The notes below the pieces were generated by a model. It had not been told where the DNA came from. It worked only from the letters and a program-made list of their open reading frames with translations, and made no database searches. A program made the translations under genes and the position numbers. From contig NZ_SMKZ01000013.1 in assembly GCF_004349065.1 (NCBI RefSeq), forward strand, positions 1-64,000: a DNA stretch of 64,000 nucleotides, read 5' to 3'. Shown here piece after piece: positions 54,422 to 60,898 of the stretch (its first letter is position 1; each line of letters begins with the position of its first letter). This stretch comes from Jiangella asiatica. GTDB taxonomy: Bacteria > Actinomycetota > Actinomycetes > Jiangellales > Jiangellaceae.

Positions 54422-57400
54422 ATGCCTCCGGTGCGCATCGGCATCCTGGGACCGCTGGAGGTCCGCGACGACGACGCGCCGGTCTACGTGGCCGGCGCAC
54501 GGCTGCGCACGCTGCTGATCATCCTGGCGCTGGAGCCCGGCCGGCTGGTACCGGTGGCCCAGCTGGTCGACGGCATCTGGGGCGACGACCCGCCGGCCGG
54601 TGCCACCAATGCGCTGCAGGCGCTGGTGTCGCGGCTGCGGCGGGCGCTGCCGGGGCTCGCGATCGAGTCCCACCCGGCCGGATACCGGCTTGCGCTGGAG
54701 CCGGACGCCGTCGACGCCGCCCGCTTCGAGCGGCAGGTCGCGACCGCGCGGTCCGCGTCCGACGACGCCACGGTGGAGGACGGGCTGCGGGCGGCGCTGG
54801 CACTGTGGCGCGGCCCGGCGCTGCTGGACGTCGCGGAGACGGAGTTCTTCGAGGCGCCTCGGGCGCGACTGGAGGAACTCAGGTTGACGGCGACGGAGGA
54901 CCGCGTCGACGCCGCGCTGCGGCTGGGCCGCGGCGCCGGGTTGACCACCGAGCTGACCACGCTGGTCGCCGAGTACCCGGTGCGCGAACGGCTGGTCGAG
55001 CAGCTCATGCGGGCGCTGGTCGCGGCCGGGCGCCCCGCCGCGGCGCTGGCGGCCTACGAGCGGACCCGAGGGGCGCTGGCCGACGAACTGGGCACCGACC
55101 CCTCCGCCGAGCTGTCCGCCCTGCACACGGCGATCCTGCGGGCCGACCTCACGTCGGCGGCCCCGGCGCCGCCCGCGCGGGTCGCGGACCCGGCGCCCCA
55201 GCCCGCCGCGCCCCGGACCAACCTGCGCGCCGGGCTGAGCAGTTTCATCGGCCGCGACGCCGACGTCGCTCGCGTGCGCGACCTCGTCGGCGAGTACCGG
55301 CTGACGACTCTGACGGGACCGGGCGGGTCGGGCAAGACCCGGCTGGCCAGCGAGGCCTCACGCACGCTGACGGACCAGCTGTCCGCCGGCGTCTGGCTGG
55401 TCGAGCTGGCCCTGGTCGCGGCCGACGCCGACGTACCGTCCGCGGTCCTCGGCGCACTGGACCTGCGCGACCAGGCGTTCGGCGCGACCACCGAGGACGC
55501 CACCGGGCGGCTGGTCGCGGCGCTGCGGACCCGGACCGCCCTGCTCGTGCTGGACAACTGCGAGCACGTCATCGGCGCCGCCGCGACGCTGGCCGACCGG
55601 CTGCTCGGCGAATGCCCTGACCTGCGCATCCTCGCGACCAGCCGCGAGCCGCTCGGCATCACCGGCGAAGCGGTCTGGCCGGTCGAGCCGCTGAGGCTCC
55701 CACCGGAGCACGTCGACGGTGCTGACCTGCTGCGCTTCGACGCCATCCGGCTGCTCGTCGACCGTGCCCGCGCCGTCCGGCCGGGCTTCACCGTCACCGA
55801 CGCCGACGCGCCCGCCGTCGCCCGCATCTGCCGCGCGCTCGACGGCATGCCGCTGGCCATCGAGCTGGCCGCGGCCCGGCTGCGCACCATGACCGTCGAG
55901 CAGCTGGCTGCCCGTCTGGACGACCGGTTCCGGCTGCTCACCGGCGGCAGCCGCACCGCGCTGCCTCGACACCAGACGCTGCGCGCGGTCGTCGACTGGA
56001 GCTGGGGCCTGCTGCCCGAGCCCGAGCGCGTCGTGCTGCGCCGGCTCGCGGTGTTCGCCGGCGGCGCGACGGCGGAGGCCGCGGCGCAGGTGTGCGGCGA
56101 TGGTGCCGACGTGCTCGACGCGCTCATCTCGCTCAGCGACAAGTCGCTGCTGGTGGTCGAGGACGACGGCGAGGCGCCCCGATACCGCCTGCTCGAGACG
56201 ATCAAGGCGTACGGCCTGGAACGGCTGGACGAGGTAGGCGAGCTCGACACCGTCCGGCGGGCGCACATCGGCTGGCTGATCGAGCTGGCCGAGACCGCCG
56301 AGCCGCACCTGCACCGGGCCGAGCAGCTCGTATGGCTGCGGCGGCTGCGCGCGGTGCACGACGACATCACGGTGGCGCTGCGCGGCGCGAGCGCCGCCGG
56401 CGACGCCGAGAACGCGGTCCGGCTGGTGGTGGCCTGCGGCTGGTACTGGTGGCTCAGCGGCCACAAGAACGACGGGATCGAGCTGGCGATCCAGGCGCTG
56501 GCCGTGCCCGGCCCCACCGACCCCGAGGCACGGGCCACCGCGTGCGCCGTCGTCACCTTCCTGATCACCAGCGGCGTGGGCGACCTCAGGGAGGCCGCCG
56601 ACTGGGTACGACAGGCCCGCGAGCTGTCCGCCGGCATCGCGGACCCCGGGCCGTTTCTGCGATTCATGGCCCCGTTGAGCGTGATCCTCGGCGCCGAGGA
56701 CGAGCCCCTCACGACCCTCGCCGACGCCTTGGCGCCGCTGCTGGAGGACCCCGACCCGTGGTTCCGGGCTCAGGCTCGGCTGACCCGGGCACAGATGCTG
56801 CCGACCCGGGAGCGAGAGGCCGACCTCACCCAGGCGCTCACGGAGTTCCGCATGGTCGGCGAGCGGTGGGGCATCTCGTACGCCCTCACCACCCTGGCGG
56901 ACCTGCACGCCCGGCGCGGCGAGCTGGAGCGCGCGATCGAGCAGTACGAGCAGGCCATCGTCGCCATCAGCGAGATCGGCACCGTCGACGACATCGTCAT
57001 GATGCGCAGCCGGCTCGCCCAGCTGCGGTGGCTGACCGGCGACCGGGCCGGCAGCGCGGCCGAGGTCGTGCGGGCCGAGCGCGACGCCGAGCAGGTCGCC
57101 TGGCCCGACGGCCTGGCCATCATGGCGCTCCACCGTGCCGGCCTCGCCGGCTGGGCCGGCGACACCGTCACCGCGCGGCAGCAACTGGTCCGTGCGCAGG
57201 CGCTGCTGCGGGACATCCCGATCCACCCGGTGTTCCAGGCGATCATGCTGGAGATCAAGGCTTCGCTGGACGTCGAGGAAGGCCGGTGGGACGCCGCGGC
57301 CGCCGCCCGCACGCAAGCGCTAACGGCCGTCCTGAGCAGCGAGGACAGCGGCGAGGAGACGGTCGGGGCGGTGCTGGCCGGGATCGCCGACCACGCGCTG

Positions 57401-57670
57401 CGCCAGGGGCGGCCGGCCGACGCCGTCCGGCTGCTGGCCGCCGTCGAAGTGCTGGCCGGCGGGTTGGACCGGTCCGCTCCAGGTGGCGTAAACACCGACG
57501 AGGCCGCCCGCGCCGCACTGGGCGCCAGGTCGGCCTCGAAGCTGCTGGCCGAGACGGAGCGGGAGCTCGCCGGCCTGGACGGCGACGCGGCCAACTCCTG
57601 GTTGCGCGAGCTGGCCGCGTCGGTCCTGGGTCACCCGGTCAGCGAACCGGGGGCCGGCGGAACAGCTTGA
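54422..57670 (+). CDS. AfsR/SARP-type regulator with BTAD, NB-ARC ATPase and helical-repeat domains
   Basis: 1082 aa. OmpR-like DNA-binding domain (about 5-95: ILGPLEVRDDDAPV; ATNALQALVSRLRRAL), BTAD (about 98-243: DAARFERQVATAR; ALAAYERTRGALADELG), an ATPase with Walker A GPGGSGKT at 299-306 and LLVLDNCEHV as Walker B, and a long TPR-like C-terminus (to ~1060). AfsR-type proteins activate secondary metabolism, binding direct heptamer repeats 11 bp apart. Such an array lies at 59504-59559. ATG 54422 or GTG 54431 is the start. Its last 32 nt overlap the convergent ABC permease gene. Confidence 0.93.
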   Translation: MPPVRIGILGPLEVRDDDAPVYVAGARLRTLLIILALEPGRLVPVAQLVDGIWGDDPPAGATNALQALVSRLRRALPGLAIESHPAGYRLALEPDAVDAARFERQVATARSASDDATVEDGLRAALALWRGPALLDVAETEFFEAPRARLEELRLTATEDRVDAALRLGRGAGLTTELTTLVAEYPVRERLVEQLMRALVAAGRPAAALAAYERTRGALADELGTDPSAELSALHTAILRADLTSAAPAPPARVADPAPQPAAPRTNLRAGLSSFIGRDADVARVRDLVGEYRLTTLTGPGGSGKTRLASEASRTLTDQLSAGVWLVELALVAADADVPSAVLGALDLRDQAFGATTEDATGRLVAALRTRTALLVLDNCEHVIGAAATLADRLLGECPDLRILATSREPLGITGEAVWPVEPLRLPPEHVDGADLLRFDAIRLLVDRARAVRPGFTVTDADAPAVARICRALDGMPLAIELAAARLRTMTVEQLAARLDDRFRLLTGGSRTALPRHQTLRAVVDWSWGLLPEPERVVLRRLAVFAGGATAEAAAQVCGDGADVLDALISLSDKSLLVVEDDGEAPRYRLLETIKAYGLERLDEVGELDTVRRAHIGWLIELAETAEPHLHRAEQLVWLRRLRAVHDDITVALRGASAAGDAENAVRLVVACGWYWWLSGHKNDGIELAIQALAVPGPTDPEARATACAVVTFLITSGVGDLREAADWVRQARELSAGIADPGPFLRFMAPLSVILGAEDEPLTTLADALAPLLEDPDPWFRAQARLTRAQMLPTREREADLTQALTEFRMVGERWGISYALTTLADLHARRGELERAIEQYEQAIVAISEIGTVDDIVMMRSRLAQLRWLTGDRAGSAAEVVRAERDAEQVAWPDGLAIMALHRAGLAGWAGDTVTARQQLVRAQALLRDIPIHPVFQAIMLEIKASLDVEEGRWDAAAAARTQALTAVLSSEDSGEETVGAVLAGIADHALRQGRPADAVRLLAAVEVLAGGLDRSAPGGVNTDEAARAALGARSASKLLAETERELAGLDGDAANSWLRELAASVLGHPVSEPGAGGTA

Positions 57671-58430
57671 GCGCCCAGAAGTAGCCGAGCAGGCCGATCA
57701 CGGCGGTCCAGGCGAGCGCCAGGACGGCGTTGTCGCCGATCTCGGTGCCCAGCAGCAAGCCGCGCACCGTCTCGATCACCGGGCTGAACGGCTGGTACTC
57801 GGCGAACCACGCCAGACCGGCCGGCATCGAGTCGGCGGGGACGAACCCGCTGCCCAGGAACGGCAGCAGCACCAGCAGCGTCGGCGTGTTGCTCGCGGTC
57901 TCCACGCTTTTCGCCTGCAGACCCATCGCGACGGCGAGCCAGGTCAGCGCGATGGCGAAGAGGCACAGCAGGCCGATCGTGGCGATCCATTCCGCCGCGT
58001 TCGCGTTTGTCCGGAACCCGATCAGGAAGGCCACGCCGATGACGATCGCGATGCCGACCAGCGTCTGCAGGAAGCTTCCGATCACGTGCCCGGTGAGGAC
58101 CGCGCCACGGGAGATCGCCATGGTGCGGAACCGGGCGATGATGCCTTCGTGCATGTCCATGGCGACGGAGATCGCCGTCCCCTGGATCGATGCGGACACC
58201 GTCATCAGGATGATGCCGGGGACGAGGTAGTCGATGTAGTCGCCCCGGCCGGCGGACGGGCCGCCGAGCCCGGCGCCGAGCGTCTGTCCGAAGACGAAGG
58301 CGAACATCAGCAGCATGATCACCGGGAGGGCGATCAGCTGCACGGTCATCGCGGGATACCGTGCCCACCGGCGCATGTTCCGGCGCAGCATGGTGCGCGA
58401 GTCGCGGGCGGCAAGGGTGAGGGTGCTCAT
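57639..58430 (-). CDS. ABC-2 type permease (DrrB-like)
   Basis: 263 aa, six membrane segments. QLIALPVIMLLMFAFVFGQTLG near the start, DYLVPGIILMTVSASIQGTAISVAMDM, and MAISRGAVLTGHVIGSFLQTLVG are the DrrB/ABC2 membrane pattern. Forms an exporter with the ATPase encoded just upstream (ATGA overlap). The family exports daunorubicin-like drugs or lipids. The 3' end overlaps the convergent regulator gene. Confidence 0.93.
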   Translation of the reverse strand: MSTLTLAARDSRTMLRRNMRRWARYPAMTVQLIALPVIMLLMFAFVFGQTLGAGLGGPSAGRGDYIDYLVPGIILMTVSASIQGTAISVAMDMHEGIIARFRTMAISRGAVLTGHVIGSFLQTLVGIAIVIGVAFLIGFRTNANAAEWIATIGLLCLFAIALTWLAVAMGLQAKSVETASNTPTLLVLLPFLGSGFVPADSMPAGLAWFAEYQPFSPVIETVRGLLLGTEIGDNAVLALAWTAVIGLLGYFWALKLFRRPPVR

Positions 58431-59449
58431 CGGACGGTCTCCTTGGTCGTCGAGTCGGCGGCGGTGTCGGTCGTCTCGGCCGATTGATGACCGGCCCCGG
58501 CTGAGGAGCGCACCTCGGTCGGGCGGCCGGTCAGCGCCAGGAACACGTCGTCGAGGTCGGGGGTGTGCACGGTGAGGTTCGTGACCTCGATCGAGGCGAC
58601 GTCGAGGTGGTCGAGGACGGCGCGCAGCGAGTTGACGTCGCCGTCGCTGGGGACCTGCAGGGCCAGCGCGGCGTCGTCGCGGGTGGAGCCGGCGAACGTG
58701 CGGGCGGCCTGGTCGAGCTCGTCCGGGTCCGCGAACTCGAGCCGGATGTGCCCGCCGGGGATCAGCCGCTTCAGCTCAGCGGAGGTGCCCTCGGCGACGA
58801 TGTGGCCGTGGTCGAGCAGCGCGATCCGATCGGCCAGCTCGTCGGCCTCCTCGAGATACTGCGTGGTGAGGAAGATCGTCACGCCGCCGGCGACCAGCCC
58901 GCGGATGGCGTCCCACATGATGCGCCGGGTGCGCGGGTCCAGCCCGGTCGTCGGCTCGTCCAGGAAGATCACCTTGGGGTCGCCCACCAGGGTCATCGCG
59001 AGGTCGAGCTTGCGCCGCATGCCACCGGAGTAGGTCATCGGGTTCTTCTCCGCCGCGTCCACCAGGTCGAACCGTTCCAACAGCTCGGCCGTCCGGCGCC
59101 GGCCCTCGGCCCGCGGCAGGTGGTTGAGGTCGGCCATGAGGAGCAGGTTCTCCTCGCCGGTGAGCAGGTTGTCGACGGCGGAGAACTGACCGGTGACGCC
59201 GATCGCGCCGCGGATGCCGTCGGCGTCGGTCGCCAGGTCGTGGCCCGCCACGCGGACGGTGCCGCCGTCGGCTTCGATCAGGGTGGAGAGTATCTGGACG
59301 GCGGTGGTCTTGCCGGCGCCGTTCGGGCCGAGCAACGCGAAGACGGTGCCTTCGGGGACGGTGATGTCGATGCCGTCGAGGACGGTCTGTTCGCCGTACG
59401 ACTTGCGCAGGCCGGTCGCGGCGATGGCCGTCGGTTGGTCGGGTGTCAT
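58427..59449 (-). CDS. ABC transporter ATPase (DrrA-like)
   Basis: 340 aa. Walker A GPNGAGKT near 40-47, signature YSGGMRRKLDLA, Walker B VIFLDEPTTGLD, and the DrrA C-terminal domain (LEFADPDELDQAARTF ... DLDDVFLALTGR). The tail (~315-340) is Ser/Thr-rich. Powers the DrrB-like permease. ATG 59449 with GAGG upstream; transcribed away from the SARP-type repeats at 59504. Confidence 0.95.
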   Translation of the reverse strand: MTPDQPTAIAATGLRKSYGEQTVLDGIDITVPEGTVFALLGPNGAGKTTAVQILSTLIEADGGTVRVAGHDLATDADGIRGAIGVTGQFSAVDNLLTGEENLLLMADLNHLPRAEGRRRTAELLERFDLVDAAEKNPMTYSGGMRRKLDLAMTLVGDPKVIFLDEPTTGLDPRTRRIMWDAIRGLVAGGVTIFLTTQYLEEADELADRIALLDHGHIVAEGTSAELKRLIPGGHIRLEFADPDELDQAARTFAGSTRDDAALALQVPSDGDVNSLRAVLDHLDVASIEVTNLTVHTPDLDDVFLALTGRPTEVRSSAGAGHQSAETTDTAADSTTKETVR

Positions 59450-59503
59450 GGTGGCCTCGTTTCAGGAGGTGTCGCCGTGCTGATGCGACAACCGTCGCCG
59501 AGA

Positions 59504-59559
59504 CCGCTGACACCGCTATGACACCCCGCTGACATGGCCGCTGACGCGGCGCTGACACG
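59504..59559. promoter_or_regulatory. Five TGAC(A/G)-centred direct repeats at 11-12 bp: SARP-type binding site
   Basis: TGACAC, TGACAC, TGACAT, TGACGC, TGACAC begin at 59508, 59519, 59530, 59542 and 59553, so the periods are 11, 11, 12, 11 bp; most read GCTGAC(A/G). An inverted GCGTCAGC follows at 59561. The array lies between the DrrA gene (minus) and the operon at 59624 (plus). Heptamers at 11-bp steps are the known site type of SARP/AfsR activators, and such a gene is 1.8 kb away. TAGGCT at 59612-59617 could be a -10 for a nearly leaderless plus-strand transcript. Confidence 0.65.
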
Positions 59560-59623
59560 GGCGTCAGCCCGTACGTCGAGCCCTTCGGATGCCGACAGGA
59601 CGGACGGCGGATAGGCTCGCCCG

Positions 59624-60898
59624 GTGGCCGTCGCTACTGCATCGAAGACCACCCGGTTCCGGTGGCGACGCGCCGTCCGGGTCTGTGCGCTGGCCGCCTT
59701 GGGCGTCGTCCTGAGCGCGGCCGCGCCAGCCGCCGCCGGTGACGTCCCGCACGCCGGCACCGTCGACGAACTGGTCGAACAGTTGCGCGCCGACCCCGTC
59801 CTGGTGCAGCCGTCGATGGCGATGGGCGACTCCCGACGCGCCCACGAGGTGCTCGCCGACGCCGCGGCCGAGGTCGACGTCCCGGTCTACGTCGTGCTGG
59901 CCGACACCCCATCCGACCTGGCGCACGCCGAGCGCGTGGCCGAGCAGGCGGCCATCCTGTTCCGCGCGGAGCTCGGCGACGGGCTCTACCACGTCGAGTT
60001 CCTGGACGGGATCTCCTACACCCAGGCCTGGGGCGACGGCCTGGACGACTTCACCGTCCGTCCCGCGGCCGACGCCATCAGGCGCGCCGAGGCGAACGCA
60101 CCGGGCGAGTATCCGCGGGCGTCGGCGCTGTTGGAGGCGGTTTACACGGTGCGGTCCGCCGCCGAACCCGGCGCCGCGCTGCCCGACGCCGTCGTCGACG
60201 AGTACGCCGGCCAGCCGTGGGCGATCCTCCCAGAGTCGGACCATGACCGAGCCGATGCCACCGCAGCACGCTGGGTGGCGGCGATCGCCACCGGCACCGG
60301 CATCGTCGTCGCCGGGCTCATCGTCAGCCTCGTCGTCGCTCGGACGAAGCCGCTGCCCCGCCGGCACCACGACACCGGGCCGGACCGCGCCGGCCACGCA
60401 CCGGCGCCGGCCGACGTCCGCGCCCAGGCGGAACGGCGGCTCGACGCCGCCCGGCGTGGCCTGGCCAGGCTGCCCGCCGGCTCCCTGTCGACGCCACCCG
60501 CCACGGCGGCCGGACTCGCCATCGAGGCGGCGGACCGGGTGCTGACGTCCGGCGACGACCTCGACGCTGTCGGCGCCCTCGTGCTGGCGCACAGCGCGAA
60601 CCGCGAGCTGGACCGCATGTCCAAGCCGATGCTGGAGGCTTATCGGCCGTGCTTCGTCAACCCCATGCACGGTGAGGCCCAGGACACCGTCCAGGTGGGC
60701 GGGTCGTCGATCGACGCGCCGGTCTGCCGGTCCTGCGCCCGTGACCGCGCGGGGCGACCGTTCCTGTCGGTGCGCCGGCGGCTGCGCGGCTGGGTGCCGT
60801 ACGTCGAGACGTCCACGGTGTGGGCGCGCACCGGCTTCGGCGCCCTGGTCGGCGACCTCGCGGCCCAGGTGCTCGACGATCGGAGCGCCCGCCGATGA
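59624..60898 (+). CDS. Membrane protein of unknown function, first of a three-gene operon
   Basis: 424 aa. N-terminal signal or anchor (about 13-38, LAALGVVLSAAAPAAA), an extracytoplasmic alpha/beta domain to ~220 with VPVYVVLADTPSD that recalls TPM-type domains, a membrane segment at about 223-246, and a cytoplasmic part. Near 345-424 is a Cys/His-containing domain: CFVNPMHG, then CRSCARD, and WARTGFGALVGDL at the end. The third gene of the operon has the same domain. GTG 59624 is nearly leaderless (TAGGCT 7 nt upstream). Its stop overlaps the next start (ATGA). I do not recognise the family. Confidence 0.75.
   Translation: MAVATASKTTRFRWRRAVRVCALAALGVVLSAAAPAAAGDVPHAGTVDELVEQLRADPVLVQPSMAMGDSRRAHEVLADAAAEVDVPVYVVLADTPSDLAHAERVAEQAAILFRAELGDGLYHVEFLDGISYTQAWGDGLDDFTVRPAADAIRRAEANAPGEYPRASALLEAVYTVRSAAEPGAALPDAVVDEYAGQPWAILPESDHDRADATAARWVAAIATGTGIVVAGLIVSLVVARTKPLPRRHHDTGPDRAGHAPAPADVRAQAERRLDAARRGLARLPAGSLSTPPATAAGLAIEAADRVLTSGDDLDAVGALVLAHSANRELDRMSKPMLEAYRPCFVNPMHGEAQDTVQVGGSSIDAPVCRSCARDRAGRPFLSVRRRLRGWVPYVETSTVWARTGFGALVGDLAAQVLDDRSARR

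Follow-up and report, generated by a model that had tools for sequence, protein, structure and literature searches.

The window, a stretch of 64,000 nucleotides of Jiangella asiatica DNA, carries the gene of a large SARP regulator convergent with the genes of a DrrAB-type exporter, beyond which lies a divergent three-gene operon.

54422..57670, plus strand: large SARP regulator, 1082 aa, with a winged-helix DNA-binding domain, a BTAD, an ATPase part, and a TPR-like part; convergent with drrAB
57639..58430, minus strand: DrrB-like ABC-2 permease, 263 aa; PF01061; TIGR01247 (drrB) at 70.7 bits, under the cut-off of 223.05
58427..59449, minus strand: DrrA-type ABC transporter ATPase, 340 aa; PF00005 and PF13732; TIGR01188 (drrA) at 324.4 bits against a cut-off of 312.45
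59624..60898, plus strand: first gene of the three-gene operon, with a GTG start; no Pfam or NCBIfam family; beside DrrAB in the window and in 11/11 other genus members

The regulator opens with an OmpR-type winged helix (PF00486, 32.9 bits versus a cut-off of 26.2) followed by a BTAD (PF03704, 137.1 versus 22.1 bits), and the best PDB match of residues 1 to 293 is AfsR (8k60 and 8jke; 6.7e-37). Its ATPase part matches AAA_22 (PF13401) at 27.9 bits, against a cut-off of 27, and NB-ARC at 19.4 bits, under the cut-off of 23.5; as expected of a large SARP, it holds a Walker A motif, GPGGxGKT at residues 299 to 306, which is invariant in 16 aligned homologs. The C-terminal TPR region stays under the cut-off for both TPR_12 (24.9 versus 30.1 bits) and TPR_2 (22.8 versus 27 bits). 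Assignment of the protein as the AfsR ortholog was rejected, with 198 bits against the NCBIfam AfsR equivalog cut-off of 1430. The genome has eight BTAD matches. A beta-lactamase-fold gene (PF00144; 53579-54394) ends 27 bp before the SARP start and may share its operon; in each of the 10 other genus genomes with enough flanking sequence, this gene and the SARP are no more than about 1 kb apart.

The 174-bp intergenic region between drrA and the operon holds an array of direct repeats. The original prediction had placed TGAC(A/G) cores at 59508, 59519, 59530, 59542, and 59553, and direct reading finds all five exactly there, at successive distances of 11, 11, 12, and 11 bp. The array spans 59506-59557 and is made of five minus-strand heptamers of the type TGTCAGC, each plus 4 bp.

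59551..59557, minus strand: heptamer 1, TGTCAGC, read directly; the DrrA-distal end; similar array in relatives
59540..59546, minus strand: heptamer 2, CGTCAGC, read directly; 11 bp from heptamer 1
59528..59534, minus strand: heptamer 3, TGTCAGC, read directly; 12 bp from heptamer 2
59517..59523, minus strand: heptamer 4, TGTCATA, degenerate, read directly; 11 bp from heptamer 3
59506..59512, minus strand: heptamer 5, TGTCAGC, DrrA-proximal; 11 bp from heptamer 4 and 9 bp upstream of the -10 element
59491..59496, minus strand: -10-like element GACGGT of the drrAB promoter; nAnnnT at a 9-bp gap in related promoters
59484, minus strand: predicted transcription start of drrAB, inferred from the -10 position
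59612..59617, plus strand: -10-like element TAGGCT of the three-gene operon, 6 nt before the GTG of its first gene

Tandem Repeats Finder describes the array as 5.0 copies of period 11, with 68% matches and 10% indels. A five-core chain at 10- to 12-bp spacing arose in none of 20,000 dinucleotide shuffles of the intergenic region, where the longest chain had three members and occurred twice; this rules out a chance origin. Elsewhere in the 64 kb, on both strands, no TGAC(A/G) chain exceeds two members. If one exact 5-mer is demanded, without the A/G choice, the longest chain has only three members and is matched by 14 of 1,500 shuffles, so that much of the weight rests on conservation in relatives. 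The five-copy array is confirmed as real.

On the DrrA strand, the proximal heptamer TGTCAGC is followed after 9 bp by GACGGT, a gap of 8 bp if the repeat is read as GTCAGCN. SARP promoters, as described in the portion of PMC10936776 used here, have direct repeats at 11 or 22 bp and a 3' repeat 8 bp from the -10 element. The window has heptamers in direct repeat, five copies at 11/11/12/11 bp, and a 3' repeat about 8 bp from a predicted -10. Because the 9-bp gap to a -10 element on the DrrA strand agrees with this published geometry, we assign the array to the drrAB promoter.

Close orthologs of drrA, with 85 to 91% identity, occur in 11 other Jiangella genomes. An array of the same word stands upstream of drrA in all of them, with two to five (C/T)GTCA copies each, and the SARP is likewise convergent with and adjoining drrB in 11/11 (in G002, it is cut by the contig end). 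Close relatives that keep both genes without the repeats, which the original prediction had named as the finding that would count against it, did not appear: array, DrrAB, and SARP are all kept in 11/11.

The combination of SARP, DrrAB, and array is shared by other genera. From at least 534 confirmed matches to the SARP, we took the best 80 as named loci, 54 of which have a DrrA match above 200 bits; such a sample gives no measure of frequency in genomes at large. Its array-bearing rows come from ten families by NCBI name, most often Micromonosporaceae, Nocardiaceae, and Streptomycetaceae. Arrays were scored by the matches of three heptamers to TGTCAG (maximum, 18), 10 to 12 bp apart and exactly 9 bp before nAnnnT. 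A score of at least 13 was reached by 81 of the 99 DrrA rows that have a SARP no more than 6 kb away and by 0/5 without one, the 99 and 104 score rows counting three contigs twice (L220 = L066, L221 = L063, L254 = L109; removed from the later promoter, co-variation, and gap counts). The same score was reached by 1/2,080 shuffled and 0/104 reversed sequences. Twenty further DrrA paralogs without a SARP match in the fetched stretch (18 in eight Jiangella genomes, the remaining two in different genera of the same family) scored 6 to 10, with 0/20 reaching 13; over all unlinked DrrA genes examined, the array is present in 0/25. At a score of at least 15, the 80 named loci gave 63 matches, some perhaps of the same array, versus none when reversed.

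The array was not detected (score below 13) in 18 of the 99 SARP-linked rows. Four of these come from tandem DrrA pairs, of which they are the second member (L074, L075, L107, L108), two are of a TGAAAC type (L070, L071), and three belong to more distant SARPs (L122, L123, L135); the other nine are unaccounted for (L228, L248, L253, L280, L285, L292, L293, L298, L299). In a DrrA subgroup (L121, L134, L272, L276, L281, L291), the middle heptamer reads TGTGCG(C/T/G) instead of TGTCAGC at unchanged 11-bp spacing, as if the repeats had acquired different roles.

The gap to the -10 element was also scanned with no gap imposed, by counting nAnnnT hexamers at every gap from 0 to 29 past the last heptamer in the 78 of 91 TGTCAG rows over the array threshold and in all 17 of the TGAAAC rows described below. 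At gap 9, the hexamer is present in 66 of the 78 TGTCAG promoters; the next highest count is 9, at gap 25, and most gaps have 0 to 3. The TGAAAC promoters have it at gap 9 in 15/17. In 37/78 related promoters the start codon follows the -10 element by 6 to 7 nt, as in leaderless transcripts; in the window, the drrA start codon lies 35 nt past the predicted transcription start.

Two members of the family (L070 and L071) combine a close exporter (70 to 73% identity) with a different SARP, of 34 to 35% identity to that of the window, and their drrA promoters bear TGAAACC-like heptamers with the 11-bp period and 9-bp gap unchanged. A search of 296 genomes with this SARP gave 44 matches in 42 genomes. 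We took 16 more neighbourhoods of this second SARP clade, namely, the 15 best besides L070 and L071 plus one lower-ranking; 15 of the 16 had a usable DrrA (L330 has DrrB and no DrrA match), which makes 17 loci with L070 and L071. The TGAAAC array type is present in 17/17, with L334 just at threshold, since a score of 12 (that of L334) sufficed for the TGAAAC label, against 13 for the TGTCAG label.

The residue preceding (A/S)-(L/V/I)-Q of the recognition helix is Asn in the first kind of regulator and Lys in the TGAAAC kind. NAxQ-type starts (n = 81) go with TGTCAG in 71 cases, with no array in 9, and with a TGAAAC label in 1 (the script gave this label to L292 although its regulator is N-type), and KAxQ-type starts go with TGAAAC in 17/17; ten further rows are unreadable at this residue, six of them with TGTCAG arrays. 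The N or K residue itself served to form the groups compared, and the co-variation amounts to few events, not 98, because essentially one regulator clade is involved.

Trees were built by a quick method under a simple model, with a program warning of long branches, from 87 of 111 pairs, 81 of the 87 being labelled. Eleven pairs were left out (three duplicates, four with partial or more distant SARPs, and L248, L260, L280, and L285, which have no clear array), and 13 more were thinned as near copies. The array type changes 2 times on the SARP tree, one of these being the doubtful L292, versus 5 times on the DrrA tree, where at least 3 of the 5 changes are forced by starred branches. As judged from these trees, the heptamer word tracks the regulator better than the exporter, which is the best argument for regarding the adjacent SARP as the putative binder.

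Scanning the 12 genus genomes with a strict three-heptamer pattern gave 41 sites, against 0 for a backwards control. It replaced a loose pattern (two heptamers, 2 mismatches) that was discarded after giving 70 matches in the window's own genome versus 18 in the control. Among the 41 sites, by our reading, 6 belong to set-1 DrrA, 4 to set-2 DrrA, 11 to set-3 DrrA (one a relic), 8 to MMPL transporters, and 2 to DUF4097 genes (G011:C86 and G007:C21); ten are without a nameable target. Three sites lie in the window's own genome: the present array, a relic before a truncated drrA, and a site that has one mismatch, is followed by no clear gene, and looks like a chance match. The second SARP-type array of this genome, at G000:C37:76730-76772 (L185, L209), precedes a drrA remnant that keeps about 13 codons of set-3 drrA and then diverges; the whole SARP-DrrAB pair of set 3 is present in most other genus members.

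The MMPL transporter carries the array in eight genus genomes (PF03176 in the one scanned), and no SARP match was found within the 6 to 14 kb fetched around these loci. G007 and G011 have the MMPL ortholog without a visible array. A close ortholog was not found in the window's own genome or in G003 (best, 29 to 30% identity), so the MMPL transporter is no target in the window's strain. In other actinomycetes, near SARPs of the TGTCAGC kind, array and gap precede genes assigned as cytochromes P450 by sequence likeness at eight loci (that of L225, the one scanned, matches PF00067), and they also precede DUF4097 genes (PF13349 in the two scanned). This set of genes suggests an efflux and detoxification regulon, in which DrrAB and the MMPL, P450, or DUF4097 products would export and modify a toxic compound.

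At one Nocardia abscessus locus (L235), the SARP has array promoters on both flanks, around 9825 and 14800, one for a divergent cytochrome P450 gene upstream and one for a convergent DrrAB downstream. A similar site, GTGAC(C/G)..GTCATCGGAGCGTCAG(A/G)GTGTGAGTCGAAC(C/T)T, is present in five genus genomes (G006:C63:27553, G007:C67:20546, G001:C1:653075, G002:C241:19533, G011:C90:3148) and is perhaps another promoter, on the other strand.

We propose, with a probability of about 0.88, that the array serves the drrAB promoter as its operator and is bound by the SARP encoded at 54422-57670, which would switch on DrrAB. That the array is of SARP type, as originally claimed, is supported by its 11-bp period, the 9-bp gap to the -10 element, its linkage to SARPs in several families, and the co-variation of heptamer and regulator. 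The nomination of the 1082-aa SARP as its binder likewise receives strong, if indirect, support, since the heptamer co-varies with the regulator and the array is linked to the SARP. From the computed array, its -10 geometry, its conservation with SARP and DrrAB, the lack of an array at those DrrA genes examined that have no SARP, and the co-variation of heptamer and clade, we infer the following mode of action. Neighbouring SARP molecules would line up along one face of the DNA, each helical turn offering a TGTCAGC heptamer to one of them. The protomers nearest DrrA would hold region 4 of the RNA polymerase sigma factor, replacing a missing -35 element, over the -10 element GACGGT, as AfsR does at afsS, and the exporter would then be switched on. 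Until it receives a signal, the SARP would be kept inactive by its ATPase and TPR-like part; the signal would most likely be a toxic small molecule or a metabolite exported by DrrAB.

The original prediction had allowed for control of DrrAB, of the three-gene operon, or of both. DrrAB stands: both the repeats and the -10 element at its fixed distance are oriented toward DrrA, and other genera combine array, DrrAB, and SARP at loci where tblastn found none of the three operon genes. The operon as main target was rejected on account of the orientation, the variable gap, and the lack of operon matches in other-genus loci. A two-sided operator, by which the SARP would activate drrAB and also activate or block the divergent operon, seems unlikely to us. 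The operon does share the intergenic region. Its TAGGCT element is present in 11 of the 12 genus genomes (it was not found in L065). In nine of the genus members other than the window's, 20 to 21 bp separate this element from the distal repeat, which lies over the likely -35 region of the operon, so that a side effect on the operon is most plausible there. However, the direct repeats are oriented toward DrrA, TAGGCT stands at varying distances from the array (54 bp in the window, 35 bp in L056), and tblastn matches to the operon genes came from genus members only, with none in the other-genus loci examined that have array, SARP, and DrrAB. At 54 bp, the predicted elements leave the array unsuitably placed for SARP-mode activation of the operon in the window.

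Other readings keep drrAB as the target and change the mode of control or the protein. The SARP could repress drrAB, or the array could merely tune basal transcription; a negative SARP, Atr32, is described in the part of PMC10972967 drawn on here. We give this little credence, as the 9-bp gap to a weak -10 element, kept in the 66/78 and 15/17 promoters counted above, is the geometry of SARP activators. Least probable, by a shade, is that the main binder is another winged-helix regulator of 11-bp direct repeats, such as PhoP, whose site overlaps that of AfsR at afsS in the same source, or another of the eight BTAD proteins of this genome. Against it, the array is tied to the adjacent SARP gene (81/99 versus 0/25), and its word changes with the clade to which that SARP belongs, a pattern not expected from a global regulator.

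On balance, we also lean toward regarding these loci as a recurring, so far undescribed, two-part efflux and detoxification system of actinomycetes. In it, a large SARP would sense a toxic compound and switch on the adjacent DrrAB (and, in some lineages, genes for cytochrome P450, an MMPL exporter, or DUF4097 proteins). It would act through a hard-wired promoter of heptamers at 11 bp, a 9-bp gap, and a -10 element, often followed by the start codon of a leaderless transcript. The system would have at least two recognition classes, TGTCAGC and TGAAACC, that have passed from one exporter lineage to another; Asn or Lys at position 63, where the recognition helix starts, would tell them apart. Searches of open-licence PMC papers, some of them narrow, yielded by title and abstract beginning no report of a recurring SARP-DrrAB pair, of TGTCAG repeats with SARPs, or of SARP-run sets of P450 and exporter; the subscription literature may have one.

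Most of what is known of SARPs concerns the switching of antibiotic biosynthesis. In the loci described here, such a switch seems to be coupled to export, and perhaps also to detoxification, in several actinomycete families. With the promoter rule of heptamers at 11 bp, 9 bp, and a -10 element, sequence alone could suffice to predict the targets of SARPs. Heptamer and recognition-helix residue change together, a clue to a SARP recognition code that can be put to the test and would help to pair orphan SARPs with targets and to find what SARPs sense.

DnrI, a SARP, is said, in a 2017 report attributed to Prija et al., to bind drrAB and drrC of Streptomyces peucetius. The two cases are alike in linking a SARP to drrAB; here, the SARP is a large one, and the SARP-DrrAB pair recurs across families. 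According to the part of PMC10972967 drawn on here, DnrI is the activator of daunorubicin biosynthesis, and SARP sites with two or three heptamers were already known. Among these, the PimR site resembles the present array in its three heptamers with 4-bp spacers; it differs in being described there as free of -35 overlap and in serving a regulator of the SARP-LAL type.

The closest likeness is to AfsR and the afs box of Streptomyces coelicolor, as described in the portion of PMC10936776 used here. AfsR protomers occupy adjacent repeats, and sigma region 4 rests on the protomers instead of on a -35 element; each protomer touches the first 8 bp of an 11-bp repeat, and the afsS -10 element is CACTGT. 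Both systems have a large SARP with ATPase and TPR parts (TPR-like in the SARP of the window), 11-bp direct repeats over the -35 region, an 8-bp distance from repeat to -10 (with the GTCAGCN reading), and, by hand alignment, a TCA core in the same register. In contrast, the window has the word TGTCAGC where the afs box has CGTT(T/C)ATCGNN, and five copies instead of two. The target of AfsR is afsS, whereas that of the window's SARP would be the adjacent exporter.
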